Source: Ceratodon purpureus
Lineage: Eukaryota; Streptophyta; Bryopsida; Pseudoditrichales; Ditrichaceae
Length of the DNA: 64,000 bases
Direction of reading: 5' to 3'
NCBI GenBank assembly: GCA_014871385.1
Contig: CM026425.1
Span: 7,479,243 to 7,543,242, forward strand
In this document: positions 1-33,190 of the stretch, piece after piece
Position numbering within the stretch: the stretch's first letter is position 1
Layout: each line of letters starts with the position of its first letter
Translations under genes and position numbers: made by a program
Notes under the pieces: generated by a model
Told to the model about the DNA's origin: nothing
What the model saw: only the letters and a program-made list of their open reading frames with translations
Database searches by the model: none

Positions 1-3000
1 ATCACAAGAGTCTCAAAATAACACAATGTCGTTTTATGCTCAGAGACAGAATCGTCCACCTCCTAATCGTTTTCAACGGTCAGGCAACCCTAGAATTTTA
101 GTGCGTTCATCTGATAATTACATTCAAAACAGTGGGAGTCATGCGGTTGGCAGTGGAAGTTATGTTGCTGGCAGTGGGAGTTATAGAACAGCTAACGACA
201 CTTATGGTTAGAAGCATCCAACTCTACACAAGCAGACCAGTGGGAGCAGTGGAAGTTATGCGCATCCTCACTCACCACTTTGACCATCTTTACAACCAGT
301 TACCCAATTCCACCAATGTAGTGACCTACGCGTCAACATCCTCAACACTCTACACCGACGACTGCATCCTCACCTCTCAACAAGGGATTGTACACAATTT
401 CAAACAGAAAAAGCAGCGTGCAATTGAGATTCTTGAGTTGGAGAAAATTACTCCGAGCAACAACTATGGAGAGTTCGGACATTGGTTCAATGAGTGTCCT
501 TACAGACGTTCATACTACCCCCACGGCCCCTAGCTCATGCGAATTTAGATGATACAGGTGCAAGCAACGATGAAGAATACTTGTCTTCCTACGACATGAA
601 CTTGCTCGATCAGTCATCATTTCCTGATTCTTATCCAACAGACGCGGGATATTCACTGGACCCCACACTGCATAACACGGATTTTTAAGAAGCAGCCGTG
701 CAGATCTCCAAATGGATGAGTCTCAACAAGACAGCCCGCATTATGAGCTCTCCTTTATGGCTGATAGTAGCTCCACTCGTGCAGTTTACTCGAATTCATG
801 GATTGCAGATACAAGGGCGGCTCGCCATATGACCGACAGACTTGACTGGTTTTCTACGCTGGAAAACTTATCTCAAGACCAAAACTTATCAATACAAGCC
901 ATTGGAGGGAAAATTCACTATGCTGCTGGTGATATATGTATCAAGATTCAGTTACCGAATCAGCCATCTCAATCTGCGTTCCTTAGAGACGTCCTGTATG
1001 TTCCTGGTTTACATCAAAAATTTATTTTCTACAACGCGGGCATCTCAACTGTACAAATTCTCCTTTCATGGCGATGACCAAGGATGTCAGCTTACTTCAC
1101 GTAACCAAACTATTATGGTCGGGAGAATGGTAGACTGCATCTACCTTTTGGACTTTGAGGTCATTCCTAGTGCAGATACTCATCAAGCTTTCCTTACTCT
1201 ACCGTTTCGAGATGTTGCTACAAAACATATGCCTATTTCTTTAGAAACGTGGCATCAGAGATTCGGACACCTCCATTATGACATGATTCGTCGAATGGCC
1301 TCATTGGATTCTGTTTAGGGTCTTCACATTTCAGGATCCACAACGAAAATCCCAGACCGTCCCTGCACAGGATGTGCTCTTGGGAAAATGTCGAAGGTAT
1401 CTTTTCCAGTCCACAAAGACCAAGAATGAGCAACTTATCCTGGGGAATTGGTACACAGTGATATCTGTGGACCAAACGAGATTTCTTACGGTGGCCCCCT
1501 CTATTACATCTTATTCAAAGATGATTTTTTGACGTACAGATTCATTTTTACAATTAAGTAGAAATCGGAAGCTCTATCCTGCTTCAAACAAGTTCTCAGC
1601 GAAATTTGGCGAGTCGCACAGACACGGATTAGCATATTGAGAACAGATAATGGAGGAGAATACGTGAGCAAGGCATTTACAGAGTACTTGTTAAATCATG
1701 ACATCAAGCACGAGTTCACAGCACCGACTAATCCTGAACAAAATAGTGTTGCCGAACGTGACAATAGAACCATTATGGAAATGGTTAGGAGCTATATTCA
1801 CCATTCACAAGTTTCTCAAAAAATTTGGGCAGAGGCTGTGCATTATGCAATTTACACGCTAAATCGTACTGGCTCACGACTATTGCATGGGCGAACTCCT
1901 TACGAGGTCTTCACATGTACCAAACCCTCCATTTCTCACATGAGAACTTTTGGTTGTCATGTCTTCATTCATACAGCCGATTCTCTTCGCAATAAGCTGC
2001 AGCCAAAGTCTCGCACTGGGATTTTTCTTGGATGCTCTGCTACTTCAAAGGCTTATAGAGTTTGGGATTTAACAAAGCGAAGAGTTGTTATTTCACAAGA
2101 CATAATATGCGATGAATCTGGCATTACGTCCTCGACATCTACAGAAGACTTGGAAAATTTGATGTTCTTCTTTGATGGTTGCCGAGTCTCGCTACCAACT
2201 CCGCCTTTACAGGTACAACAACAGCCTGATCAGATTCAACCTGCTGCCGAACTTGTGCACAAACCTGCTGCAAAACCTCACGTTTTACCTGATAATCATG
2301 GTTCAAGTACCCCGGCTCGCCCTGTACGTCACCGAAGGCCACCAGATCGATTTTCTCCTACACAGTATGCTTATACTGCGCAGGTCTTTGATTTACCCTC
2401 TATCCCTCAAAGCTACTATGAAGCGATTTCCTCTGAACATGGTGAGCAGTGGCACTTGGCGATGAAAGAGGAGCTTCAATCCCTTGCCGAGAATAAAACT
2501 TGGGAGCTAAGAGAACTACCGCATGGACGAAAGGCTATACGTAATAAATGGGTGTATGCATATAAGACCAATCATGATGGTTCCTTAGCACGTTTGAAGG
2601 CACGACTTGTAGCTAAAGGTTGCTCACAGAAGCCTGGGCTTGATTTATCCGAGACTTTCAGCCCATTGGTACGCTATGATAGCATTCGCACTATCTTAGC
2701 TCTCTGTGCATTCGAAGACTATGAGATAGTGCAGTTTGATATCAAGATTGCCTTCTTGAATGGCTTGTTATCTGAGGAGATATACATGCAACAGCCGGAA
2801 GGGTTTGAAGACAGAAACCAATCTCATTTGGTATGTCGATTATTTCACTCGCTTTATGGACTTCGGCAAGCAAGTAGAGTCTGAAATAAGGTTTTTGATA
2901 AATTTCTGAAAGGAAATTCGCTGATAGCAAGCCCTGATGATCCCTGGGTTCATTTCTCGACGATAGAACCTCACTTATTAACAGCCATTTTCGTTGACGA

Positions 3001-4287
3001 TGGGATCTGTGCTTCAAAATCCAACGACCGCATCCAATCGGTACTTATGGATATGCATGAGGTTTTTGAAGTGAAGACTGATGACCCGAACGTCTACGTT
3101 GGGCTACATATTATTCGAGATAGACAGGTTCGAACAATTTCTTTGCACCAGGCAATTTATATTGAAGGCAAATTGAAGAAATATGGTCTCTTTGATTCAG
3201 CACCATGTGCTATACCGGCGGATTCAACTGTCTATCTCCAAGACCAATCAACTATAACCGATGATCACTTTGAACCTTCTTTCCCGTACAAGGCGACCCA
3301 TGGTAGTTTGGGATTTGCAGCCCAATCTACTCGTCCAGATATCTCGTTTGCAACATCCAGCGTTGACAGGTTTCAAGCTAATCCAACTGCTGAGCATTGC
3401 AAAGCTGCAAGAAAAGTTTTCAAATATCTTCGGGGCACAATCGGTTTTGGAATAACTTACGGTGGATCAAATTCGAATTGCACTCTGACAGCTTATGGAG
3501 ATGCTGATTTTGCAAATGACAAACTGGACCGCAAATCCAGATCAGGATGGGTGGTACTTTTGAATAATGGCCCGATTGCGTGGGGATCCAATAAGAAAGC
3601 GATTGTTGCAACCAGTACTTGTTACGCAGAATACATAGCTATTTTCGATGTCACCAAAGTGGTAGTATGGCTTAGACGGCTCATGGCCAGCATTGGGCAA
3701 TGGGCATTTGCAGTCTTCACCAACATTAATCCATTGTGACAATCAAGCGGCGTTACGTCTGGCCAAGAATCCCGATGATCCAGGCAAAAACAAGCATATT
3801 GATCTGCGATTTCATTACATTCGTGAACAGCTTAAGCAGGGAGAAATTGTCTTGCAGTATTGTCCATCTGCACACAATCTGGCTGATATTTTCACAAAGG
3901 CGCTTCCTGTGCAGCAGTTCAAGATTCTTCGTGAACGATTGTCCATTACTGATGTCAGTCAACGTTGAAGTGGGAGATTACTTCTATTATCAACATTTCA
4001 TTCCATCTATTGAGTGGGAGGTTTGGACCAGGATGTATTTTGTTGAATAGATGTAATGAATGTAGGATGATCTCACCCTAGGGTTTTGTGCCTTGTCCCT
4101 CCGGATTTCTAGTGTTAGCTCTCTTTCTCTGTTCTGTCTGTGTGTGTCTAAGCGAGCTTTGCAGAGTGTAGTGTTAGCATGAGAGTGAGCATGATTGAGC
4201 TTGTGAGATAAGCATTTGTAATACTTCCAGCTGAATAAGAAGAAGAATTCATAAAGTGAGAGTGTTCTCTGTGTTGATTAAGTGACA
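1..4287 (+). mobile_element. Ty1/copia LTR retrotransposon fossil, 3' portion (5' end outside window)
   Basis: Fossil element read on the plus strand. In order it shows remnants of a gag region with a zinc-knuckle-like stretch (about 1-690), a protease region (about 710-1080), the GAG-pre-integrase and integrase region (about 1200-2150, with the MRTDNGGEY and NPEQNSVAER signatures), reverse transcriptase (about 2430-3450, with NKWVYAYK and VQFDIK) and RNase H (about 3480-3960). The order integrase before reverse transcriptase is diagnostic of Ty1/copia rather than Ty3/gypsy. The coding region is broken many times (at least half a dozen interruptions), so it is old and not functional. The 5' LTR and the start of gag lie left of base 1, so LTR divergence cannot be used for dating. 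A purine-rich tract near 4010-4020 precedes the likely 3' LTR. Confidence 0.93.
4019..4287 (+). repeat. Probable 3' LTR of the copia fossil
   Basis: It follows the RNase H region and a polypurine-like GAGTGGGAG, and ends near a CA dinucleotide at 4286-4287. It contains a pyrimidine-rich leader (CTCTCTTTCTCTGTTCTGTC) and an AATAAG polyadenylation-like signal, as expected of an R/U5 region. The boundaries are inferred because no second LTR is in the window. Confidence 0.45.
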
Positions 4288-10878: not shown

Positions 10879-13800
10879 ATGGCGATGGCGGTCGACGGGA
10901 GCCACGCGCACTCGAGCATGACGTTGGGGAGCAGCCAGGCATCGGAGAATGCGTGGTCGAGCACGGCGTGGGAGCAGCAGAGCGGGCTGGCGGACTCGCT
11001 GTCGATGTCGATGGAGGGCAGCGGCGGGGGCGAGTACGGCGGGGGCGGGAGGATGGAGTGGGAGCTGAAGGCGAACTCGTGGGAGTGGGAGAATCTGACG
11101 ATGGTGTACCCGCGGCAGGGCGAGGGGCAGCAGCGGCTACCGAGCGCGGAGTGGGGGAGCGCGGGGTGCAGCGCGGTGACGCTGGCGACGTCGGCCGGGG
11201 GCGGGTCGGGGACGGACGATGTGTCCATCGGGCTGGCGTCGGGGAGCAGCACGCCATCAGGGACGTCGGTGTCGTCGGGCATCCCCGGCGTGGGCGCCGG
11301 CAGGGGCAGCAGCAGCAGCGGGGGCGAGCCCGGCGCGCTGGTGAAGAACGAGCCGGACGAGCAGACAGCGATGGGCACGCCGGCGACGCTGGGCAACGGG
11401 ACGAACGGGCTGTTCTTCAACCTGGGGGGAGGCCGGTCGCGAGGGAGCGCGGAGGCGTCGCCGGAGCGGGACGAGAGCGGGAGGCGGAGTGGTGGGCAGA
11501 GCAATGGCAGCATTGTGATGAGCGGCGGAGGCGATTCGCTGAACATCGGGCTGAAGCTGGGGCGGCGCACGTACTTCAAGGACTGCGCGGCAGGAGGGCA
11601 GGGGCAAGGGCAGGCGAAGAGCGGCAGTCCGGCAGGCAGCGCGGGCGCACCTCCGGCGAAGAAGCCGCGCGTGATGTCGACGAGCACGCAGGTGGCGCGG
11701 TGTCAGGTGGAGGGGTGCAAGGCGGATCTGAGCGGGTGCAAGGACTATCACAAGCGCCACAAGGTGTGCGAGATGCACTCGAAGGCGCCGAAGGCAATCG
11801 CAGGGGGAATAGAGCAGCGCTTCTGCCAGCAATGTTCGAGGTGATTGGCTGTGATAAACTGTGTGATGTGGTTTTGCTGGAGTGGGAGTGTTCTGGAGTT
11901 GTAGATGCCGAATGGGCATGGTGTGTGGATGCTGTGTATCTGTCGGTGTGGCCTGCTCTGCGGGACGATCGTTCGTGAGTCGGGACCGGACAGCTGGTTC
12001 TGTGGAGAGATTGCTGTGGTGCCGATGAGCATATGGTGTTCGTGTACTGTAATGTGTCCCGTGGGAGCTGTAGGTTGAGCAATGCACTGGTGAGGCTTGA
12101 CCTTGTTGAGGCTAGGTTTCCTCATCAGATCGTCGAGGTCCCTTGGTGTTGAAATGGCACTCACTCATGGAGTCATGGATGGGTGCTGCAGGTTTCACGT
12201 ACTTTCTGAGTTCGACGAAGGGAAGCGCAGCTGTCGCAGACGGCTGGCAGGTCACAACGAGCGGCGGAGGAAGCCGCATCCAGAGACGCATTCCGTGTTC
12301 GGTCTGCGGAACTCGTCCTCGTTGTACGGTGACACATCCAGACTGGGGTTCGACTCGGCGCCGTTTTACTTTCTAGGTGAGCTGCGCGCACCGGCCATGG
12401 TTGGGCAGATGGATGTGGTCAAGTTACATGGTGTGAGTGGAAGGCCGGTGTTTTGAAATGTCGGAGTCTGACAGAATTGCTAAAAGTGTCTGTTGGGGTG
12501 AGGGGGAGGCCATGTTTTTGAGCATTCCTTGTGTGCAAGTCTGATTGTGCTCGCCGACCGGCCGGTCCCGTATCCAATTTGTTTGGGAAAGGGAAGTGTA
12601 GTTGAGCTCACTGGGCCTTGAGCGTTTAGGGTCGGGATTGTTGGCTATGGTTAGTTTGCTATTGTTCTGAGGTTTTTGGATCATATTGATTCTGGCCAAC
12701 GAGATCCGGTTTTGCTCGATGGGTGGTCTGTGTATGGTCTCGCGAGATGTTGGTTGAAATGTGTGAGGCATGGCTTTTGAGCTCTTCGACTAGGACCGGA
12801 AAGCTCCAGGTCCTCGGTTGTGATTGTTTGGTGTACTTCCTGTGGCCATATGCTTTCTAACTTGGTTGTGCATTGTGATCCCCGCAGACAGCAAACGGCC
12901 AAGCTACTTGCATCGTCAGAGGGGATCCTCTCTGGACGATGAACTGAGCGCTTACTCCGATGTGAAGCGGACGAGCCCCTGGTCGACCTCCATGAGGAGG
13001 GACGACGGCAATCTGGCATATCAGCTTCAGGTATCTGTCCTGACATGTAGCGGTGGAGAGAGTGGTGGTCATGCGTTTACTCAGTGCAGTGTCAGTCGGG
13101 TCAGTGCAGAAGGAGTTTGATTTGTTGCTGTAGTTGTGGAGGGGCCATGTCGATGGGTGAATGTGAGAAACTGATGGGTTGGTGATGGCAAATGACAGGC
13201 TGCTAGCACAGAGAGACAGTCAATCTTCTCGACAATATCCCGGCCGACGGCGGACCGGCTTCTGATGCTTCTGCAGAATCCGAAGACGCAGATGCCGGCT
13301 CCGAGCACGTCGACGGGTATGAATCTGGGTGGTCATCAGTACCCGGAGGGACCCTTGGGTCCACTCGGCCAGGGTCTATCACTGTCCTCCACGGGAGGGG
13401 TCGTGGGCAGCCTGGAGCAGAGCCGTCTGGGCTCGTGCTCGCAAGCCCTGTCCAGCGTGTCTGGAATGATGGACTCTGGCCGTGCTCTCTCTCTTCTGTC
13501 ATCGCAGTCGTGGGCCTCTCGCCCACTCCCAGGCGCTCCGCCTCCGGTGTCCGTGGGCCTGTCGAAGGCCGCGGACTCGACGCTGGAGCAGTTGGTGGCC
13601 AGCAGCAATGATAGCAGCAGCCGAGGATCTCGGTTCGCTAATCAGGTGCAACTCCCGACGCTGGGAGGGTCATCAACGACGAGCGCCCAGCCGCAATTCG
13701 ACGCACAGTTCTCGGTCCAATCGGGGGCCGGTCTTGACTCTGTGGCGCTGAATTGTGGGCTGACTGCCACTGGTAACGGGACTCATCAACGCCAAGGTTG

Positions 13801-14044
13801 CAGCAACGGCAACGTGTTGGGCGGGTTAGGAAGGTACGAAGAGCCGAACTCGATCCAGGAGCAGCTGGAAGCCCTGAGGTCGGGGTTCGGCGGGTCTCAC
13901 GAAGGTCGGCCGACGATCGATCTGATGCAGATGCCTGCGGTCGGGGCGCATCATGGTGCCCAGAGCAACGGAGTGCATTCTGGGCAGTACGGCGGGTTCA
14001 GCTCTATGCGTCCGTTCGAGTCGTCGATCTTCACGAGTCAGTGA
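10879..14044 (+). CDS. SBP-box (SPL) transcription factor, miR156-type clade (SPL gene 1)
   Basis: Coding exons 10879-11840, 12192-12376, 12888-13030 and 13199-14044 give 711 codons plus TGA. All three introns are GT-AG and the phases match. The ATG at 10879 has purine at -3 and G at +4. SBP domain at residues 274-349: zinc finger 1 uses C275, C280, C297 and H300; finger 2 uses C316, C319, H323 and C335; the basic KR...RRRK nuclear signal spans 332-348. The SBP domain binds GTAC-core DNA. The first intron splits the codon after CQQCSR, the usual SBP-gene position. Conserved extras are MEWELK...WEWENL (59-73), LKLGRRTYF (225-233), LSLSSTGG (490-497), ALSLLSSQ (526-533, encoded by the miRNA site) and TIDLMQM (about 669). 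These point to the SPL9/15-like, miRNA-controlled group that drives phase change and reproductive timing. The N-terminal half is rich in Gly and Ser. It is convergent with SPL gene 2. Confidence 0.95.
13482..13501 (+). promoter_or_regulatory. miR156 target site, overlapping a miR529-type site, in exon 4 of SPL gene 1
   Basis: The 20 bases GTGCTCTCTCTCTTCTGTCA are identical to the usual miR156 target sequence of plant SPL genes, and they encode part of ALSLLSSQ. Bases 13477-13497 also match the complement of miR529 at about 19 of 21 positions, the two differences lying at 13477 and 13481. The site is in the last coding exon, as is typical. Expected effect: AGO1-mediated cleavage or translational block, restricting this SPL to late stages. 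Confidence 0.92.
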
Positions 14045-15681
14045 AGCTAGGCTTTGTGGCGTTCCGTGGTCGGAACGTGGAATGTGATATAATTTGGTCA
14101 GGATGGAGTGATGGTGGTGGGTTCTCGTGTTGGTTTAGATGGGAACCCAGGGTGTAGGAGTAGTTTTTGCATCACTGGATGGCAGTGGTGCGGATGTAGA
14201 ATCCGGTGTAAGTATTTCTGGGATACTGGAGAGCACTTTTGGGTTAGTCAGAGGCTGCCTGTGCGGAGGTGGTAGTGGCTAGACGTCGGGTTAATTTTTG
14301 AGGCTGCTATGTCGTTTTTGTGATATGATTAATCGAACTTGAGTCGCTCCGGGCGGTGCAGGCGGTGCGATAGGAGTATACAGAACTCTGTTGGGCCGAT
14401 GGGTTCAGAAAATATTGTGTGTTTATGATTGAAATTGTGCATTTGTATTCAGCGATTCTGGTTCCTGCTCTATCAAATTTTTGGATATGAAAAGAAATGT
14501 TATTGTTGGCAATATGGCTGGGTGCAGTTGAAGTATGTCTGGTTTGCTTTCGATGGATTCGGGTCGAGCTGATACTCTTGGTACTGTTTAGTTTTGTTCT
14601 GAATTGGCAGCGTAATGTGTTTGTTCACCTGTGGTAGGTTGTTTTCTGTCGTCCGGTTTCGTAACGCTTGTATTCTATGTGGTTTTGGTTATTTGAGTCA
14701 TAGTTCTGCTGGTTAGCCCGTATTCTTGAAAACTTCGCTGCTGGTTGACTCTTAGTTGGTATTCAGTCACATGTGCGATTGTTACAGCTGGTTTTCAATC
14801 TGGTACTTGAATTGTGATGCTGGAGCAGCTGGAATGCTCTCTATTTGGAAAACGCGGTGGCTTGAAGCTGGCCAATTAAATTGTGCACTGTCCCATCAAT
14901 GCAACCATCACCAGTCAGCAGGTTATCGTGGTCATCAGTGGACAGTAAAGCACAATTAGGTGGATACCTCGCATACGTAGCCATCCCAACTGATTTGATT
15001 TTAGTCTTGATTTTGCATGAGATTTTAATATCTTCCATCCATTTGTTATCACCGTCATGGGTTTAGTTTGTGGAGTAAACATTGGCTTTGCTTAGAATCT
15101 CGACCTTGATGTGCCTGTAAATTTACCTCCCGAAAGAAGTTGACAATCTTGTGTCAAGTCCCAACCGAAGACGACCCGTTTGAACAAACTGTACTGGACC
15201 TGTACTACCAGAATCTTGGCATCAACTAGGTGGAAGCATTTTCAGCATTGCTAGCTCCTAATTACACACCAGTGGAGACTGCAGTGGGGTCCCTCTTAAG
15301 TTTCAACTCCGTGTTTCCTGCTAATCTACCACCATGGTCCATGGCTGCTCACCAGGAAAGAAACGTACAGAAGGGGCTGGACTTGTGCTGTGATTTGGGA
15401 GCAAGCTGAACAGACGTACGCCAGAACCTTCGTGCAACAAGACCAATGTCCCCGAGCTCCGGAATGGGAAATTGGAATGATCTCTCACTTCCCACTTGGG
15501 TAATCCGGTACTACATCGTTATGAAAGCACTTGCTAATTAAGATTATCCTTTTGTGTACTTCGTGTCGATGTCGAGATGGGGTACGGAGCCTCTCACGGG
15601 CCCTCTCACAGGACATGCATCTCGGATTTGCTTCCAGAGATATGTGAAGCATGTCTGGTCAGCTCGCCATTAATTTGTGCT
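14045..15681. other. 3' flank of SPL gene 1, no further gene seen
   Basis: This must contain the 3' UTR and polyadenylation site of SPL gene 1. T/G-rich stretches between about 14300 and 14700 are compatible with plant near-upstream elements, but I cannot place the cleavage site. The rest up to the LINE insertion shows no supportable open frame. Confidence 0.5.
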
Positions 15682-15691
15682 TTTTTTTTTT
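15671..15691. repeat. Target-site duplication of the LINE, left copy
   Basis: TAATTTGTGC followed by at least 11 T. The same string recurs at 16165-16185 on the other side of the LINE fragment. The exact length is blurred because the duplication merges into the poly(T) tail. Confidence 0.75.
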
Positions 15692-16164
15692 TTTTTTTTT
15701 TTTTGAAGCAAAGGAATTCCATTGCAGAGAAATAGATTACAAGTCAAGGTCCTCAATCTGGTCCTCTTGCCTAGGAGGCATTGGTCGATGGGAAATGTGG
15801 CTGGCGGGTGCAGGTTCCTGGTCCCCTTGAGTAACCAGTGAATGATCAGAAAGGCCACCGTCCAGACCTTCTTGGATTGGGGACATTTGTAAAACCGGTG
15901 AGAGTAATTCTCAACACAGGGAGTAACACAGAGGGGGCATTGGGAATCAGCAAGAGGTTTAAACTTGCTTCTCCACGAGTTGGTTGCTATAGCTTAGTGA
16001 CACAACGACCATAAGAAGCCAGCCTCCTTTTGAGATCTGTTTTTCCAAATCTTCTTCCAACCTATCTCGAAGTTGATGGTTAGTTCCTGGCGCCACTTCT
16101 CGGAAATCGGAGTCTTGAGCTGGGCGCGGTCTGTTAAAATCTCTTTGCCCGCTTTGACGCTGTA
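15682..16164 (-). mobile_element. 5'-truncated LINE (non-LTR retrotransposon), 3' end with zf-RVT region and poly(A)
   Basis: On the minus strand the sequence encodes the C-terminal zinc-binding (zf-RVT) region of plant LINE ORF2: WKKIWKN...FLWSLCH, then AIATNSWRSK, CPLC, CVENYSHRFYKCP and KKVW. One in-frame TAA interrupts it after FLWSLCH. It ends in a poly(A) tail, seen as a run of 24 T at 15681-15704 on the plus strand. The same sequence TAATTTGTGC plus T-run occurs at 15671 onward and at 16165-16185, a target-site duplication of about 20 bp. This is the signature of target-primed insertion, with only about the last 480 bp inserted. It lies between the two convergent SPL genes. Confidence 0.85.
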
Positions 16165-16185
16165 TAATTTGTGCTTTTTTTTTTT
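16165..16185. repeat. Target-site duplication of the LINE, right copy
   Basis: TAATTTGTGC followed by 11 T, matching 15671-15691. Together they bracket the LINE fragment. Confidence 0.75.
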
Positions 16186-17520
16186 CCAACAGGTGGTGGA
16201 AATTAGGGAAGCTGACAAAGAACTCTATTGACTTTTAAGTGGACAACAACGTGATGAGAGCTAATTGGTGAATGATTTTATTCTAATTTATCCATAATGT
16301 CACCCACACACCAATGTCCACCATCTCATGGAATCCAATTGCATCTGGAATAGTTTGTTGTGTTTCTTCTATAATGGATAGTCACATTTTAAAGGTCTCC
16401 TTCCATGTGAGGATTGGTTGGGTGCAAGGCAGGAGAAGACAAGAAACGAGGTTTCAACAGTCTCTGATACTCCACCCATTTGGATGGAAATAAAAATTTA
16501 CTAGGAATGCATCCATAATCCACCAAAATGGTGGAGCTCCCTTCTGCTGCAGATCGATACCAATCATCCATCCAACATGGAAGCCTACCCTAAGAAAGGT
16601 GAATTAGAAAAGAAAGCTGGTTTGAGAAGCATAGTTTAATCTTTTAAAAAATAATATCCTTGGTGGCTGAATGCAAGGTCAAAGATGACTTAATTTTATT
16701 TGACTTGTTAGAGTGAAGGTAGCTATGAGGTAAAAAACATGTTTTGCGAAGAAAATTCATCTCAAATGTAGAATAATGTTGAAAGGAAATAATTTGTTAC
16801 ATTAAATCTAGTATAAGTGCGAGGACTTAGAGACGAGGACTTAGAGACATCACATTCAACATTTCTAGGCAAAGAAAATATTCATATAAAATTCACCCAC
16901 AACAACATGCACAAAGGACCATAATTTCTAAATTTTCTTTAGGCTATTTGTAAATAAAGGTCTAATTTGTAAAGTGCTTAAAATCATTTCTTTATGTATG
17001 ACATAAGTGCTCCTCCAATTTTTGACACCCCTAGGGGCCTAGTCCTTATTTTAGATAAAGTGTAAAAAATTGCACTGAAGCCTACCCTACACTACCCACC
17101 TGAAAATGGCTAAGTACATGCATGTGATTAATTCAATACTACTCTTGTTCTTGGTACTGTAGGTTACTAGCACCTTAGGCAAAAAATAATTATTTTGAAG
17201 TCTGCCTAAATTTTCTAGAAATTCTTGACTCTATCTACCCAACTTTGAGATATTATTATCCAACTTTGAGATAGTTACCATGCTAGTAACCTATGGTACC
17301 AAGAACAAGAGAATCATGGTTACCAATTACAATTAACTGGTAACATCACTTACACCAGATTGTGAACCAACAAACACAATTCACCTACACTCAGTTTGTT
17401 TTGTGTTGTTTGAACAATGTTGCACAGCTGTAGAGTTGGTTCTTAACTAAAGCCTTCATACGTCTTGGCAAATTACATGCATACCAATATTCATACAAAC
17501 GGAACGATGTTACTTTCAAA

Positions 17521-17521
<1 letters not shown>
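16186..17521. other. Intergenic AT-rich stretch between the SPL genes
   Basis: No gene seen. The string CTTGTTCTTGGTACTGTAGGTTACTAG near 17142-17170 reappears inverted near 17281-17311 (CATGCTAGTAACCTATGGTACCAAGAACAAG), giving an imperfect inverted repeat about 170 bp across, with TATCCAACTTTGAGATA in its interior. This could be a small MITE. Confidence 0.4.
17142..17311. mobile_element. Imperfect inverted-repeat element, possible small MITE
   Basis: The left arm (about 17142-17170) and right arm (about 17281-17311) are near reverse complements built around CTTGTTCTTGGTACTR(T)AGGTTACTAG. The interior is AT-rich. Length and foldback form suggest a short non-autonomous DNA transposon. No target duplication was confirmed. 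Confidence 0.45.

Positions 17522-17567
<46 letters not shown>
17522..17567. repeat. Poly(A) run of 46 bases
   Basis: Uninterrupted A tract preceded by C and followed by CAG. It could be the tail of a plus-strand retroposed sequence, but nothing upstream is recognisable as a LINE or SINE body. Confidence 0.9.
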
Positions 17568-17568
<1 letters not shown>

Positions 17569-18849
17569 AGTTTAACATAAATACACTGTTCAAGAAAACT
17601 TATATGAATCTGATACTCTTATAAAGCAATTGCATGATATAATGGTCATAGACAGACTTCATAGCTTAGATAGGTCACATCATAGGTTCGTATACAATAC
17701 TTTTCATTCAAACCCATTCATGATCGTCACCCGACACTGTAGTTAATACTGCCGTTCATATGTGACCCAAAAAGAAAAGAAATCAGAATAATATAAACCG
17801 AGGAAATAAGTTAGTTAGATTCGAGTTGAAAGAGACCACCACGAATTTCTTGTCTGGAGGCTCACGAGCTATCGTCTAGCCCTGTATCTCACCCTGTCCA
17901 GAACTCTTTCAAAGTGCATATACGTAGTAAAACTTCTGGCAAGAGAAGTCTATGTTGAAACAACTCTGCAGTCCCAGCTAGACAGCAAACGTAATTCAAG
18001 GAAGGACAGTCCCAAAATCTCCTCCCCTAAATAATGTGTACATGATGTGGCAACCAGACGAAACGCCCAAAACAGAGAGCTGCCACGGTCCGCAACCCTC
18101 GTGCATTACTGCCAGCATAAGTACATCATTTGCAAAAATGTTGCAAGTCTATCAGAGTTGCAGGTAATTTGAGGAAAGTGGATCACTTGAGTTGAAAACT
18201 TAGAGGCTGCAGTCACGCCATGGTCTCATATGAAAAATTCCCGGATCTGCAACCCCCATTCAACGCAATAATTATCAATAACCGAGTCCTAAGATCACTG
18301 CAAACCATATCGAATTTTGGATATAACTGCGCATTATGGAGTGCTTCATCAAGAGATTCCAACTCCGCAGCAAGGAAGCTCTTCACCTCAGCGTGAAAGA
18401 ATAATTCTTTAAACAAGCCTCATGTACTATCCAAACCTTCACCGCTGGCCCACTAGGACTAAAGGGACACCACGACGTCCGAAAACAGCATTTCATCGTT
18501 GAACATGGTTTTCATGAATTTACGCATCAGAATTGATATGACCGCTCGTTCAATGTTGTTAGCAGATATTACATCTAAACCTGATCTGGGGCATAAATTA
18601 TGAATCATAAACAGTATCCACTCAGCAAATCCTCGGCGTGGCTGCACATCCATACGGCCTTAACCCGCAGTTTTCAACGCAATGCTTTAGTGCTCTATGA
18701 ACGAGGTAAGAGAGATATCCCCTCCTTAGACACTTGTATTATGCAGTGCCCCAACGGACCCAGGTGATGCAGCCAAACAGATCACAGAAACGCTAAAATC
18801 ATGTATTTACCAGGCGCAAAACATTCAGGAATATGTGCGGTTTTTAAGC
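17568..18849 (-). other. 3' flank and probable 3' UTR of SPL gene 2
   Basis: Mid-GC, non-repetitive sequence just downstream of the SPL gene 2 stop codon (minus strand). Short open stretches at 18213-18416 and 18459-18653 (minus) have no recognisable domain and no splice path into the SPL frame, so I treat them as untranslated sequence. The polyadenylation site could not be fixed. Confidence 0.45.
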
Positions 18850-21800
18850 TTACAAGAGATTGTGATGTGAGTCATAAATGGCAGCTGACGAGCCACCGCC
18901 ATATGGTCGCATTGCCTGTAGCTCGGGATATTTCATGTCGGGGCTATCCACCGTGCTTCCAGCGCCACGACTGTTGTCGCCCCCTGAATCAGCCCCGCTG
19001 TTGTGCTGCTGTATGAATTCCATCGCCGCATGTCCCCCTTGTTCAACACTTTGGTTGCTAACCCCATCACCGGGATTTCCACCACCCTGATTGGGTGATG
19101 AGTCGATCAACGACATGATTTGCTGCCCGGACTCTAGCTGCCCATTTACGCTCATATGATTCATCGAGGACGTCCCAAAATGGTTGGAACCTGAACGTGG
19201 GGTCTGCCCACCCGCCGCCATACCACCAAGCATCCAGTCAGGGCTGGCTATATCGCGAGCTATCAGATTCTGACTCGATGGAGAGTAGGCCTGTACATCG
19301 TGCTCCTGCAATGTTTCAGATTATTAATTGCGCTAAGCATTGCATCTAGAAAACGTCACAAACGTCATTGCACATATTGACGCCTCGCGGATTTCTAATC
19401 ATCACATTGACTCCGTTAGAACAATCAATACTGTACAAGATACTAATCAACAAAAAGACACAAGAGGAGGGCCAAATTACTTCCAGACTCGTACATCTGA
19501 CTTCATTGGATGGACGACGGTGACAATACCTGGGAATTCGAGGAGTTCGCTGAGGCTGAATTCGTGATACCGGACTTCGAATCCGTGGACATAAGGTGCT
19601 GAAGATTCATGGCACTTTGTCTGCCCACCACTTGGGTCAAGTCCGATCTCGAAGTCAAAGGCCTCATCCAAGGAGCGGCAGGAGGATCCATTCCACTGTA
19701 AGTCTGACCAGACATGGTCTGGCTACGTCCTCCGCCATGATGACTCAACTGACCTCCCAGGGAAGAGAGAGACAGGTTGGGTCCGCTCTGGCCGGGACTA
19801 ACTGCCTGCTCAAATCAATCAGCACGCTATTTAATCATAGTTACACTTTAATTAAATCGACCCACGAGCACCTCTGCAGCAGGCCGCGACGCGGAACCCA
19901 TGGTAATGGCAGAACATTTTATGCACACAGATGCCTAGACAAATATGCTTAATACTAACTTCTTACTGTTTGTGTTCACAGAAATCAAAACTTGAGGTAA
20001 ACACACAGGGAGCCGTGGCTAATGCCAAAGTTTCATATTTAATGCACGACTCAAGCGGTACTTATGACCTCAAATTTCTTATGAGCAGTGTCGGAGTACT
20101 GTCAACACCTGTGTTGACATGTGATATACACGATGCCGGAATTTTAAATTCCGTGGTCTGCAAAAGGACGCCTAGAATATTATCTTCTATCCCATATTTC
20201 AATGTCGTACCTGCACTGCCTGAAGATGTTGATACACGGAATGGTCTTGCCCGTGACTGCCATTGCTTCCCATCATTCCCATCTGCCGCTTGGGATTATG
20301 GATCATCAAGGGGGACGTTGACATGGCGGAGAGCAACGCTTGTGCATCCGATCCCGTCAGAGCTTGAGAGTTTATCATTCCAGAATGAGAAGACGGGTGC
20401 TGGTCATCGCTAAGTCCTCTCCCGTATCCCTGACCAGAAGATCGCAACTGCAGGTTATTGCCTACAGAGCCAGGCTTCTCGTCGGAGTCTTCCAGGGAAA
20501 CGGAGCTCGGTGAGCTTCTACTCTTGAGCGGCATGAGCATCGATTTGGAGTCTGCATCTTAAACCCAATGAGGTCAGAGGTTGGTTAATTTGTTTCCAAA
20601 ACGGCTGAAATAGCTTACCTGCTGAATTTAACTTCATTAAAGGTTACTTGAATCTTGCGAATGTACCACCAAAGGAATGTTCAACTTAAACTATATCACA
20701 TTGACTTGCTTGATTGGTCTTGCTTGACCATCTGAAACTGAACTTGTGGAAAATATCTTGTCTAAGATATGCTTGTGATGATCGTTTTGATGTGCGACCT
20801 ATTAATTCTTTTCAAGTTACAAAATTTTCATTCCGAAATTTGTTCACTTGCGTTATTATGTAGACTTAAAAATGAAGTCCTATGTTTTTGTGGCCGATCT
20901 TTTCCATTACTTACTGTCTTGAGGGGTCAGATGGTGCCGAATGGAGGGGCGGATTATTCCGGTGCCAACGAGATCATGGCTTGTGAAAACAGCATGTCTG
21001 TGATTGGGCAGTTTGAAATTTTAGCTTGCTAACCGCATAATTAGGAATGTTATGTTTTTCCTTTTTTCTTTCTTCTTCTTTATTGTTTTTTAAAAGAAAA
21101 TTTATTTGCGGCTAGCATCACACTAAGTCCTCACGGAAACAGCCCAATATTTAACGCTTCTGGCAACTAGGCCTAACTGTAGTTTCTTCTAGTCTTGAAT
21201 TACACCATGAGCATATGTACTTTGTCATATATACATTGCACAAGCGACTGTAAGCATACCTAATGGATCGTCGTCTCCGTTTTTAATCCCAATAGACTCA
21301 GCCGTCGCTCCTCCAGACGTTGATGCATTAGGTTGTGGCTTCCGTCGCCGCCTGTTGTGATCTGCCAAACGCTTTCTACAACTTCTCTTTCCATCATCAA
21401 ATTCACCTAGACAATGAAATCTGGGAAACACAAAAAACAGTGTCAGATAACATTTTAAAAGTGAAAAATGACAAAAACATGTATTCTTAAATTACAGCAT
21501 TATTAAAAAATTATATGTTCACCGCTAAATACATAGGTGATCTAAGTTGTTTAAGCCACATTCCAAAACCAGGACTCAAATCAGCCAAAACGATGATCGT
21601 GACCAGAGTGGCAGATCCACAATGTTCAAACAATATTCAAGTACAAAAAAGCATGCTGCATATCCACTATCAAGGTAATTACCAGAATTAATATTCACTC
21701 TATGCTCAAGGAATTTATTTTGCGTGAAATCTTGAAAGTAAAAATAGACAAACCTGCTACATTGCTGGCAAAACCTCTGAGTCTGGCCACCGGCAACAAC

Positions 21801-23625
21801 ATTTGGAGCTTTCGAGTGAAGCTCACATACTTTATGGCGACGATGGTAATGCTTGGCCGTGCTAAGATCGGCTTTGCAACCCTCTGCCTGGCACATAGGG
21901 ACTTGAGACCCAGGTGATCCGGCACGATGCCGCTTTCCAAGCCGATTTGCAGCAGTTTCTTCGGTGGAGAAGTAGGTTCGCACACCGAGGTTGAGCCCAA
22001 TTCGGGCATGCCCATCATTCATCTTCGTCAACACAAAGTTCAATCAGGTATGATTAACACAAACAAAAACCATAGTAACTCAACTCTTCGCAGATCAACC
22101 TCAAACGATATGACGATCCTGACAAACTTCAATTGGAGGAAGTTGCACAAAAACTGCTTACAGCCTGCATCTATCATGCATAAGTACTTGAAACACATGT
22201 GCACATGAACACCATACTGTAAAGTCTCCCTCACTCATGACTGTCCTTCGAATGGATTATTAAACAAACACTACTACGACTCTCAGCAAGTCCTGCTGCT
22301 ACTAAAACAGGTTGACAACAAAATCAGTGCTGGACGTAGTGAGGACAAGATCGGTAAATATAAACTTAGATAGTAAGAACTCCTATCCTTGCCAGCTTGC
22401 CGACGGAAACCAAGAAAATGTTCAATTACTCACGCCGAAATCAGCGATGCAGGCAAGGATAGAACTAATTACACACGAGCAGCACATGCGAATTCAGATA
22501 TCAGATATCCAGAAATCAATCCCAAAAAAAGAAATAAATGAATAAAAAATAAAAAAGAAGAACCATACAGCTCTGAGCTATCCCGATCCGTACACTCCCA
22601 AACCTGACATACATGCAAGCATGAAAGTAATACAGCAGATAAACACATAAACGCGCTCATCACACTTAAAAGCATGCAAGAGATTCTTACGACTCCTCGC
22701 GCTTCCAATGCCCCAAAACAGACAAATGCATGCATCTATCTATGTATCCTACCTCCTCTCTCTTCACATGATGATCGTGCATCCCATGTCCAAAGAACTC
22801 GCGCCGCCGTTGATCGAAGCTGCGCGGGTCATTGTCAATGCCTGTGCCGCTCGTAGCTGCAAGCCCCGGGATACCAGATGCTCCCAGGACACTGTGGAGG
22901 TTTGATGACGAGAGCTGGGCAGATCCGTCCAAGGATCCGTAATTCCGGATCCCCGCGGAGCTGAATATCCCCAATGTGTGGTTGTTTGTAAAGTTGGATG
23001 GTAGGCCGGCGGACAACATACTGATATTACTGTAAGACGCTCGGAGACTCGACATTGGGCCTGTCCACATTCAACACCACTTCGTCAGACCACCACCAAC
23101 ACCACCCGTCACAACCTACCCTGGACTCATCTCTACTCAACCATTCCCCAGGCCTTCAATCTCCAAGCGTGTTAGTACTGCTCCTGTACCATGCTTTACA
23201 AATGCAAACATTTAGGAAACGCTTCCAACATATAGAAAGCGCTTCCTAGTAACATTCTACATACACCCCCTGGGCTCAGAGCATATCCCACTTACATACA
23301 GGCATCTAATATTCCGGCTACAATACTCTGTGAATCAACATCATGCACAAGTCATAAGTCACAAGTCTCAAGTCAGGGCTGCACCTCCGGATAACTGGTT
23401 CTTCATCATGCGATCTCCATCACCGCCCGGCCCGTCCGTTGATCCTCCACCACCAGGGTGCTGCGCCAGAATCATTGGATCCCACTCCCACTCCAGGCGG
23501 TTCGCACTGCTGTACTGGTTCGAGCTCTGGTCGAGGGCACTACCGACTGCACCTGGGTTGTCCCAATTCTCTGTTGACCAGCTGGGGTCGCCTTGCTGCT
23601 CGTTGGTATTTGCAGAAGGGTTCAT
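18850..23625 (-). CDS. SBP-box (SPL) transcription factor, SPL8-like clade (SPL gene 2)
   Basis: Minus-strand coding exons, in order: 23625-23385, 23060-22753, 22022-21754, 21420-21260, 20551-20211, 19805-19530 and 19305-18850, giving 683 codons plus TAA. All six introns are GT-AG and the phases agree. The frame is open upstream of the ATG at 23625 but contains no earlier ATG. SBP domain at residues 226-301: finger 1 uses C227, C232, C249 and H252; finger 2 uses C268, C271, H275 and C287; the nuclear signal KRSCRKR...RRRRK spans 284-300. [11 protein letters not shown] and [12 protein letters not shown] match the SPL8 type, as does [12 protein letters not shown] just before the domain (190-201). 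Other motifs: LEWEWDP (44-50), D-S-K at the exon 4/5 junction, and LSLSSLGG (451-458). The C-terminal half is rich in Ser, Gly, Gln and Asn. The miR156 consensus is absent, as expected for this clade, which acts in reproductive and meristem development. It is convergent with SPL gene 1. Confidence 0.93.
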
Positions 23626-26600
23626 CCCATATACTACCAGGGGATGGTAGACAGGTGTCTTCTCGATGGTTTCAGAAGACAGCTGGATGACAAGATTGAG
23701 TGACAGGGGAGAGAGAACACGCCAAGTACAGATAACGTCCTACAACTTATAACACACTGTACGTAGTAGTAATCGCTGAGGTGATCGTCTGTGTACACCT
23801 CAGTAACCGATACAAATAGGGTTCTACAGAGGTGTCACATACAGCTAGCGATAGGGCTTTAACGTAGTCCCAAATCGATTTACTTATACAGGTAGCACCC
23901 TCTATTTAGGAACAGTAATAACAGTTTATCGTGATCCTTATCAAGGGATATCTGAAAAGGCAGCTGATGATGCACATCAAGTTCACCTGTGGCTCCACCA
24001 CTACTTCTGTTGTGGAGTCAAGCGAGCGATGCTGCAGTTTATCCCTCACAGAACCTGCGTTTTGTGCTAACCTGCTACTAAATTACAAGCGAAATAGAAA
24101 ACGAGGGTCCGGAAAGATGCCAAACCTTTTCAGAGGTCTGGAACTAACGGCGTGCGCAAGCTCTCCCAGTCTGAAGGCGCTCAATCAATTAAGTCCCGGA
24201 TCGTTAGAAGAAGTGCGCTCAAGTAGAGGACTTCAGGTAGCTGGATCGATCAGGACTGAAGGGCAGAGCTCGAGTAATTCCGCTGTGATAAGCTGAGTAA
24301 ATTAGTGCTGGTGAGGCCCCTGCACTAATATCAGAATAGAATTGCTCTCTAATGGAATGAACTTCTCTCCAATGACTAGAGCTTGATAATTAGAGATATA
24401 ATTAAGTGGTACTCATTCTTAAGCTTGAACCACAAACCTAGTCTTACGAAACCACTGATAGGGGTGGTGGCTGAGGGGACTGGTTCAGCAGCACTGGAAA
24501 TGGCTGTGGGGGTGGAAGCGAGAGGAGTATGAGTAAATGGAGCAAAAAAAGATGGCCAGCCACCAGGAAGGGCTTGCTTATTTCACTTGGGGAAGAATCT
24601 GTGTTCTGTTGCATTTGTATTTCCCCTTTGAAATCATGAATTGCAAGTTAAAATTCCTGTTTAGAAAGATCTATCTTGTTGCATGGCTGTCGAGTCAGGC
24701 AAGATGAACTTGCTCTCCTTCGCTGAATAAGTTGTTGAAGGGTCAATGCTGCGCGGCCGCACCTGTCACCATTCAAAATGAGATGTTGAAAGGGTGAATG
24801 CTTACATCCGTACAAAATGAGATGTTGCATTTATATTGATAGAAGCAGTGCACTCAGCAATTAAGTGACTAGTACTTGCAAGGCTTAAGCGATCAAGGAT
24901 TGTGAACGTTTGAGGACTACAAATTCTCCAAGAACAAAATATTGTCAGATGTTTGCTCACTAATCATTAGAAGTATTATCTCTTGTTCCATGTTTTCTGG
25001 TGAAGCGTGTTTTACCAAGCAGTTTGGAATAAACAAACAACTACACATGCACCCCAAACAATATGCTGCAACGATAATAATTCATGTTCAGAACCATACC
25101 TGCACAAAGTATCCGTGACAGCACGATCGATCACCCTGGAGCCCTCAGCGAACACTGTAGAGGAAAAGCTGCAGCTGGATGAAGCTATAAAACCGGGATT
25201 CGAGTATTGATATTCCAGGATTGGAATATCGAGTACAGGAGTTGCACGCTCAAATATGTCATAGGTGGATAAGACCATGAAGCTGGTTGTCTACCTTCAT
25301 AAGCCCCGGTATTTAAATGACTACGTTTGTAACCTCATGCCACTGGCAACCTTATTTTCCCTTCGCCTCGCGGCAGCAGCAGCACAACAGGATTAAGAGG
25401 AATACACCTCTTGATCCGGGATCTCCAAGTTTCACCGTCTTGCATTTGTTCTCCGTAGGATATGAAGTTTTTGTCTATCCACCGTTGTGTTACGAAGCCT
25501 TGTACAAGTAGTCGGCCAAGTCGGTGCAATCCGCTTAATCGTTCAATGCGACTGATCTAATGTAACACATCTCCTCAACTGAATGGCAAACGGAGAAGGG
25601 CATCGCCAGCGATTAGGCACTGACGTGTTTGTACTCCAGTTTCACTTCATGCTTTACGCTTGCCTCCGAAGACTCTGTTGGTCAAAACATCACCAGGGGA
25701 AACACTAAAATGTTAGTCCTTCCTCCAAAATATCAACTATGATTTACAACTTATCATGTCCTAATACTGCCCGGGCTTTTAGGGAAGCCTGGAATCAACT
25801 GAATTATCTTCTGCATGCCCTCCACAGATTAATAATTGCAGGGCGTTAGCTTGATAAACGCTGGAAGGGCTTCAAGGCCCATCCAGTTGAATTTGAGAAG
25901 ACACTCTCAGGTGAGACTACTTAGCTGAAATATATTCAAGTGAGCCGACGCAAGCTCCTAATGCGGCACACGAGTTGTTAGACTATCCACGAGTCTAATC
26001 TCTGAGAAGCAAACGATACCATATTCCCAAGAAGCAGTTTGCTTTTTTCTCGCTTAGAGTGGCTTAACGCTGTTAATGAACTGAAGCTAATCATTCTGAA
26101 TTTCAATGTCGCTCACTTGAGGTGACAATGAAGAACCCACCACTTGATACGGGCGTTACAGTTTGTTCAAAATATGGCAGCATGAGCTTCTCTACATGCT
26201 AAAGGAAGCTTTCTTCGCCCTTAATCAGGAATTAGATTCTCTTTCGGCAAATACACTTAAGGATGGTCTGAACGCCGTTCCAATCTTCCAGGTAATCATA
26301 TTCTAGCTCATCGCTGTGCTTAGAAAAGAACTGGTCTGTATATTGCATCCGACCGTCCTCATAAATCAGTGCATGACTCGAAAAAGCTATTAGATATTCC
26401 TACTAGCCCATGACTGAGTCATAAACGGCTATCGTCCACGATTTCTTATCAACACGAGCATCGCTGCACTTGCGAAAAATTACAAATCAAACAGCACGAG
26501 TAATTCGAGCGTTTCAAACCCCTGAGACTGATACCTTATCCACCAAAGAGTCTCGACGGTTACTGTACAACTGCTGCTCGCTACTTGTAGACAATCAAGT

Positions 26601-31745: not shown

Positions 31746-33190
31746 TCCTAGGTAGCATAAATAATTTAGTATGACTATTATAGGTTATTGGTAAATTAGG
31801 CAGAAAATAATTGATTACAAGTGTGCCTAATATTTGGAAATTCTTGATCCTATATGCCCAAAAAAAAGTAAAACTTTGGTTATGGTGCTGCCAAAACTTA
31901 CATAAATTTAAATCATATTAAATATGTTCTACAGACTTTCACGTGTCACGAACTTGACAAGAAACCACTTCCACTCGACAACAGTGTAGCACACAACAAC
32001 ATTAATGCAAGTGATTAGAACAAAGTTTAAGGTAAAAGTAGCCGCCATCCTTGATTAATTAACCCTAAACATCTATGAAACTAGATGAATGCCTAACTTA
32101 TATTTAGTCATAATTCAAAACTCCCTGACTTTGACATATCAATTTTTGATCTACCTAACCACTTTTTGCACTTTAATTAACTAGGGCTACGCAATGCTAC
32201 CCACAACCGTTAATAAAAATCATAAGCTATCATATCCTTTGGTACAAACTCCATATTTTTTTAATTTGAATATAAATCAAAAAATTTCACAATGAACTGT
32301 CTGTTGCGGCACTTGCCAAAGAAGTGTGCAGTGTAAATAAATAAATGTATATTTAGGAATTCGCAAGCGAGGCTAGATTGACTACAATCACAACCACGCC
32401 AATGCCTACGCTTTTCAATTCCATTTGTAATTTTTTTGGGTAAAAACCCTCTCCGAGTATCTCGTCGACCAAATTATAGTAAAGTTAAAAACAAAGTTAC
32501 TTCTTTTTTGAATGATGGTTTGGAGTGTGTAAATTCAAAAATTGCTTGAAGAATACTTTGTGAAAAAAAATCCAAAAAAATCAAAAGTAAGAAGTAAGAA
32601 ATGAAAGGTGTTCATATAACAATGAAATAAAATAAAATTTACACAAAAAATGAATGATCTTGAGCTTTGCTTTTTTTTTTAAAAAATATATCAATTTATT
32701 TTTAAATAGTGTTTGAAATAACTTTTGCAATAACCTTTTGAGTAGCAATCTATATATTCTATATAAGCTTTCAAACAACCTTTGAAGTTTCCAAACTCCA
32801 ACTTCAATCTCTTCTTTCTTTTCACGACCATATAAGACTAATAATACCAAAAGACATGACGACAACCACCACCATGACGGTCACGATGCTGACTTTCTTT
32901 CATATTTTTCTAGGGTAAAGCCCCTTCCGAGTTCCTTGTCAACAGAGTTAAAAATCATGAAGACAAAAAAGAAAAATAGAATAAATTATTTTTTGTTATA
33001 TTTGTTATTTTTAAGCCTTTTAAGGCATTTTTACAATTGATTTTGTTAAAAAATAAAAATTGTGGAACTTAATTTTTGGAGGACAAACCTTATTTTTTCA
33101 AAAAAATAATTTGCTCATCATGTGGCCAACCTCATATGGTGTCACGATATGGGTTGCGCCAAACTAAATTTTGTGGGAGAATAGCTATAT
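31746..33190. other. AT-rich stretch, no gene seen
   Basis: No gene supported. TTAACCCTAAAC at 32059-32070 resembles a terminus of the TTAA-bounded family with one C fewer, but no partner was found. The two phrases GTAAA(A)ACCCTCTCCGAGTATCTCGTCGAC (near 32440) and GTAAAGCCCCTTCCGAGTTCCTTGTCAAC (near 32915) are diverged direct copies about 475 bp apart. Confidence 0.4.

Follow-up and report, generated by a model that had tools for sequence, protein, structure and literature searches.

In a 64,000-nucleotide stretch of chromosome C5 of the moss Ceratodon purpureus (C5:7479243-7543242 of a 362.5-Mb assembly in 151 contigs; hereafter the window), two SBP-box transcription factor genes converge tail to tail. 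One of them, gene A, belongs to the group of SPL genes that is targeted by miR156 and miR529, and the other, gene B, belongs to the SPL8 group. We consider it likely that this pair is an ancestral gene neighbourhood, established in early land plants and kept since. In support of this interpretation, the same two orthologues carry consecutive gene identifiers in Marchantia and in Anthoceros. Gene structures, reading frames, the target site, microRNA sequences, clades and the gene cluster described below were determined here, and linkage outside C. purpureus is taken from papers. Statements attributed to these papers refer to the passages and tables that we consulted.

A first-pass annotation of the window had described an SPL9/15-like gene with a miR156 site and an SPL8-like gene without one, from different clades and lying tail to tail about 4.8 kb apart. 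Most of this description is borne out. Both genes are present and intact: their starts agree with the annotation, all nine introns have GT..AG borders, and each coding sequence has a single, terminal stop codon. Once the stop codon of A is set to end at 14044, the gap between the genes takes the exact limits given in Table 1. Gene A has four coding exons (10879-11840, 12192-12376, 12888-13030 and 13199-14044; 711 amino acids), and the profile PF03110 scores above its cut-off on both SBP exons. The predicted target site in A has one mismatch to miR156 and two to miR529. According to PMC10796333, an intron interrupts the SBP domain of Group 2 immediately ahead of FH in the motif CQQCSRFH; intron 11841-12191 of A falls at this position, and the three introns of A are within the range of two to three given there for most Group 2 genes. 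However, the label SPL9/15 is too specific. A is of the miR156-type group, but its SBP domain fits no particular subclade of that group, and our SBP-only tree, in which the provisional AtSPL9 row sits on a long branch, is open at that node.

Gene B has seven coding exons (23385-23625, 22753-23060, 21754-22022, 21260-21420, 20211-20551, 19530-19805 and 18850-19305; 683 amino acids). The acceptor of exon 5 was set to the one common to B', a copy of B described below, which makes this exon 6 nt shorter. The six introns agree with the six to seven found in Group 1 of Physcomitrium patens (PMC10796333). No miR156 or miR529 site occurs in B or B' at up to three mismatches, as the annotation had it for B. 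Beyond their SBP domains, the two proteins A and B have the motif IGL.LG.RTYF in common.

The assignment of the genes to two clades was analyzed with an SBP-domain tree of 16 rows, in which AtSPL8 and AtSPL9 are represented by provisional reference sequences. In this tree, B, B' and a third B-type gene on chromosome C4 join AtSPL8 (support 97/95), and the A-types form a group of their own (87/92). When A-types and B-types were forced into one clade, the constraint was rejected (approximately unbiased (AU) test, p = 0.03). It should be noted that only two of the 12 inner branches of this tree are starred and that it gave long-branch warnings. On A and B as sisters relative to Groups 3 and 4, our own longer alignment is neutral, and we relied on the published tree. 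In that tree, Groups 1 and 2 each include all of its land-plant representatives, and its algae have Group 2 without Group 1 (PMC10796333). The split therefore predates the lineages that have the linkage, and the linked genes are old orthologues.

The first-pass annotation had held that a lack of linked copies in any other seed-free plant would argue for chance adjacency. Such copies were sought by means of published gene identifiers, and the result was the opposite. In Marchantia, the SPL8 orthologue MpSPL1 is Mapoly0014s0224, and MpSPL2, a target of miR529c, is Mapoly0014s0223 (PMC6174852; the MpSPL1 identifier is also given in PMC7363739). These are the orthologues of B and A, respectively. 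In Anthoceros, SPL1 is without a miR156/529 site and SPL2 has one, and the two have consecutive identifiers in all three species of Table 1 of PMC10796333 (AagrBONN Sc2ySwM_344.856/.857, AANG003444/AANG003445 and utg000107l.74/.75). Both genera differ from C. purpureus in having one gene per group, as compared with three A-types and two B-types at the moss locus, and MpSPL1 is itself targeted by the liverwort microRNA miR11671/Mpo-MR-13 (PMC6174852).

The first-pass annotation had proposed that the linkage might preserve the ancestral duplication that split the two clades, or might reflect a later rearrangement. The former gains strong support from the liverwort and hornwort identifiers. A rearrangement that joined dispersed clades by chance in C. 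purpureus would be in keeping with a region that bears repeats (a Copia fragment and a tandem array of ~255-bp units), and with the location of one B-type gene on C4. However, it does not account for the same two orthologues having consecutive identifiers in Marchantia and Anthoceros, and on this evidence we rejected both chance adjacency and recent rearrangement. In this genome alone, chance adjacency has a probability of ~2e-4, by our own arithmetic for one of two B-type loci lying within 10 kb of the A-type locus in ~250 Mb of autosomes, with A and B independent. We therefore regard such an origin as very improbable.

In rice, OsSPL8 is an SPL8-clade gene. Two SPL genes of P. patens with adjacent identifiers, Pp3c16_7480 and Pp3c16_7490, were not counted as a linked pair, because the group to which they belong (G6 of PMC8535611) mixes AtSPL9/15 and OsSPL8. 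They are a possible counterpart of the C. purpureus locus. For ferns, the text consulted gives only one miR529-related SPL identifier (PMC8386757), which was not used.

The annotation had also held that these clades are unlinked in familiar angiosperms. In Arabidopsis, going by locus identifiers, AtSPL8 is not known to lie near another SPL gene. As a general statement, however, the premise fails. In citrus, SPL8 and SPL10 lie tail to tail with ~7 kb between them in every species of one study (PMC10515035). This arrangement resembles the moss pair in that an SPL8 gene converges with an SPL gene that has a miR156 site, over ~7 kb versus 4.8 kb. It differs in that each citrus species is described as having one pair, and in that citrus SPL10 clusters with no Arabidopsis SPL. 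In Euphorbiaceae, each gene of group g6 has a tandem partner in g1, the group that contains AtSPL8 (five pairs in four species), and Arabidopsis is without g6 (PMC6929338). Among 22 angiosperms, a g1 gene lies near 13 of 21 g6 genes; in 10 of these 13 cases the two genes run in reverse direction, and in 9 of those 10 they are face to face (PMC7277735). The g6 count of 21 is that of the paper's text, and its Table 2 lists 12 + 10. That g1 of this paper is the SPL8 group is suggested by its SPL8 references and by the same authors' grouping of 2019. The angiosperm pairs are thus similar to the moss pair in placing a non-target SPL8 group beside a miR156-target group (PMC7277735; PMC6929338), with 9 of 13 converging in PMC7277735. 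They are presented differently, however: PMC7277735 proposes that miR156 originated from a g1/g6 pair, regards g6 as specific to angiosperms, and in the text consulted makes no mention of bryophyte linkage. We are less sure of the angiosperm part of the ancestral interpretation than of the bryophyte part, because PMC7277735 derives g6 from g1 within angiosperms.

It is also conceivable that tandem duplication occurred independently in each lineage, with the copies diverging and linkage arising several times. Local duplication has indeed been frequent at the moss locus. A profile search of the genome with PF03110 gave 18 exon matches, which correspond to ten SBP loci whose types we assigned from translations (Table 1); PMC10796333 gives nine SPL proteins for C. 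purpureus. Five of the ten form a cluster of ~138 kb on C5, which reaches beyond the window and holds all three A-types and two of the three B-types found. A' is an inverted and recent copy of A (synonymous divergence, dS, 0.035; DNA identity 94.6-98.7%), A'' is an older copy (~86% DNA identity in matched stretches), and B', which was copied from B, has the same orientation as B. Because B and B' are nearly identical in exons 1-2 (dS 0.008) while the remaining coding sequence diverges (dS 0.347), the near-identical tract (98.8% identity over window 22698-23855 and C5:7550122-7551279) points to gene conversion. An assembly artefact was rejected, as A and A' are not identical and no reading frame is interrupted in A, A', B or B'.

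These duplications, together with the proposed derivation of g6 from g1 within angiosperms (PMC7277735), are what independent duplication would lead one to expect. However, the moss copies have kept their type: in a 170-kb stretch searched on both strands at up to three mismatches, miR156/529 sites occur only in A, A' and A'', and B and B' are without them. Moreover, Groups 1 and 2 each cover all land plants of the published tree (PMC10796333), and the SBP domain of B matches the provisional AtSPL8 row at 64 of 79 positions, versus 59 of 79 for A. A single local duplication in the land-plant stem, retained as a neighbourhood, is the simplest explanation. Under independent origins, A and B types would have had to evolve several times, on each occasion differing in the same way in their microRNA sites. 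We therefore consider repeated independent origins improbable.

Given these observations, we infer the ancestral duplication and its orientation, as well as a shared function of A and B. A local duplication of an SBP gene would have occurred no later than the last common ancestor of land plants, and the new copy would most likely have been a tandem one, inverted and tail to tail with the first. One copy would have given rise to the clade controlled by miR156/miR529, and the other to the SPL8 clade, escaping both microRNAs. The two would have remained neighbours in liverworts, hornworts, C. purpureus and several angiosperm families, and would have been separated, or have lost a partner, elsewhere, e.g., in Arabidopsis. 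In C. purpureus, inverted and direct local duplication and gene conversion would then have expanded the locus to its three A-types and two B-types.

A stronger form of this explanation, whose odds overlap with those of simple retention, is that the ancestral linkage has also been kept by selection, through shared enhancers, interference between convergent transcripts, or co-regulation. In Marchantia, MpSPL1 and MpSPL2 share a co-expression group, and MpARF3 represses the two of them (PMC6174852), and the tail-to-tail orientation recurs in C. purpureus, in citrus (PMC10515035) and in 9 of the 13 pairs of PMC7277735. However, Arabidopsis does without the partner group g6 altogether (PMC6929338), and the moss copies are scattered over 138 kb in both orientations. 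We think it unlikely that selection has maintained the linkage. It is possible, though doubtful, that the pair represents the founding inverted duplication of the SPL8 clade and has been convergent throughout land-plant history through shared regulation. If so, it would be among the oldest conserved neighbourhoods of plant transcription factors, and the miR156 timing module would have its physical origin there.

Several observations weigh against retention of an ancestral neighbourhood. In a longer alignment that includes the upstream motif, the grouping of A and B relative to Groups 3 and 4 was neither supported nor rejected (AU p = 0.45), and a motif related to that of A and B is also present upstream of the SBP domain in Group 3. 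Adjacency in the hornworts and Marchantia is read from gene identifiers rather than from distance or orientation, the three Anthoceros species constitute one lineage, and the SPL1-like model of Anthoceros angustus (AANG003444) is without an SBP domain (PMC10796333). The B-type gene on C4 has no A-type neighbour among the SBP matches. With regard to angiosperms, 8 of the 21 g6 genes have no nearby g1 gene, and the view that g6 is angiosperm-specific and derived from g1 means that the angiosperm pairs could be independent (PMC7277735); g6 was left out of our SBP tree. The Euphorbiaceae pairs are described as tandem only, with orientation unstated in the text consulted (PMC6929338). Finally, the miR156 sequence was found at two or more loci (C9 and C12) and that of miR529 at one (C13) by direct matching of the mature words, i.e., on chromosomes other than that of the cluster, so these findings do not tie the pair to the origin of miR156. 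All three loci score below the Rfam gathering cut-off for RF00073, in a scoring that covered the best 59 of 16,454 candidates.

The timing of phase change in land plants is set by the miR156-SPL module, alongside which SPL8 acts. In our working model, the A and B proteins would act on overlapping promoters. In the juvenile phase, miR156/529 would damp A but not B, so that the reproductive and branching programme would receive one timed and one untimed input; within this single programme, A may be the arm that microRNAs time, and B the arm that they do not. P. patens plants that lack PpSBP1 or PpSBP4, both of the SPL8 clade, form more branches, and those that lack PpSBP3, from the clade with AtSPL6, form more leafy buds (PMC3617394).

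If both clades descend from one convergent pair that survives in mosses, liverworts, hornworts and flowering plants, one locus would be enough to study how they split, with what polarity, and how microRNA control was gained. For these clades, which are poorly resolved in trees of the SBP domain, the linkage would also offer an orthology marker that is independent of trees, and the angiosperm "tandem duplications" would be recast as an inherited state. In angiosperms, the pair is already known piecemeal. We found no paper that joins the bryophyte and angiosperm linkage in the open full-text literature; most subscription literature was outside this scope, so this is no proof of absence. With the same scope, we found no description of the moss cluster of three A-type and two B-type genes. 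A word check of the main text of PMC10796333 found no wording on linkage, adjacency or synteny of hornwort SPL genes, and in the text consulted of PMC6174852 the only use of "tandem" concerns lectins, with no remark on linkage of MpSPL1 and MpSPL2.

Table 1. Features of the convergent pair (window positions) and SBP loci of the C. purpureus genome (chromosome positions).
Feature	Position	Strand	Basis
Gene A, Group 2 (miR156/miR529-targeted) SBP-box transcription factor	10879-14044	+	Gene model, PF03110, tree
Overlapping miR529 (13477-13497) and miR156 (13482-13501) target sites, predicted, in last coding exon of A	13477-13501	+	Mismatch scan
Gap between converging A and B, 4,805 bp	14045-18849		Open reading frame list, Rfam scan
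Strong imperfect hairpin inside gap, 31-nt arms, 94% complementary	17142-17311		Folding, shuffling
Gene B, Group 1 (SPL8-type) SBP-box transcription factor	18850-23625	-	Gene model, site scan, tree
A-type SBP loci	C5 7490943, 7418504, 7411846		PF03110 and translations
B-type SBP loci	C5 7500989, 7549633; C4 16591559		PF03110 and translations
Group 3 SBP loci	C7 8971843 and 9053915; C1 17245833		PF03110 and translations
SPL7-like Group 4 SBP locus	C1 14386075-14386218		PF03110 and translations

The gap between A and B contains no open reading frame of 120 amino acids or more, although a gene made of short exons could escape such a list, and an Rfam scan of the whole window gave no match at gathering score. 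The hairpin within the gap has a minimum free energy of -68.8, versus a mean of -31.7 for shuffled sequences (z -9.9). It is probably a repeat resembling a miniature inverted-repeat transposable element, given that a portion is repeated at 31781-31861 (77% over 83 nt); a small-RNA hairpin is less likely. A microRNA gene in the gap was rejected, in view of the absence of any Rfam family at gathering score and of the hairpin's score for MIR2606, 32 bits, far under the cut-off of 139.7 bits.

Some further features of the region and of the other SBP loci are worth recording. Copia-type retroelement fragments occupy 676-3739 of the window, where the open reading frame 1562-2881 matches the RVT_2, SH3_retrovirus and integrase families, and the ~255-bp tandem array lies between A' and A, at C5:7445349-7450026. 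As candidate paralogous flanks from a whole-genome duplication, several open reading frames match between the surroundings of the C4 and C5 loci, and no Pfam family was found in the seven such C5 frames scanned. For the five SBP loci outside the cluster, with 10 kb searched around each, the sole miR156/529 site is a miR156-like word with three mismatches at C4:16590316, which precedes the likely start codon of the B-type gene by ~90 bp. The Group 4 gene on C1 joins AtSPL7 at 100/100, in contrast to PMC10796333, which gives no Group 4 protein for C. purpureus. The Group 3 genes on C7 have their SBP domain in one exon and form an inverted pair ~82 kb apart, with 97.9% identity over ~7.2 kb in the stretches compared.

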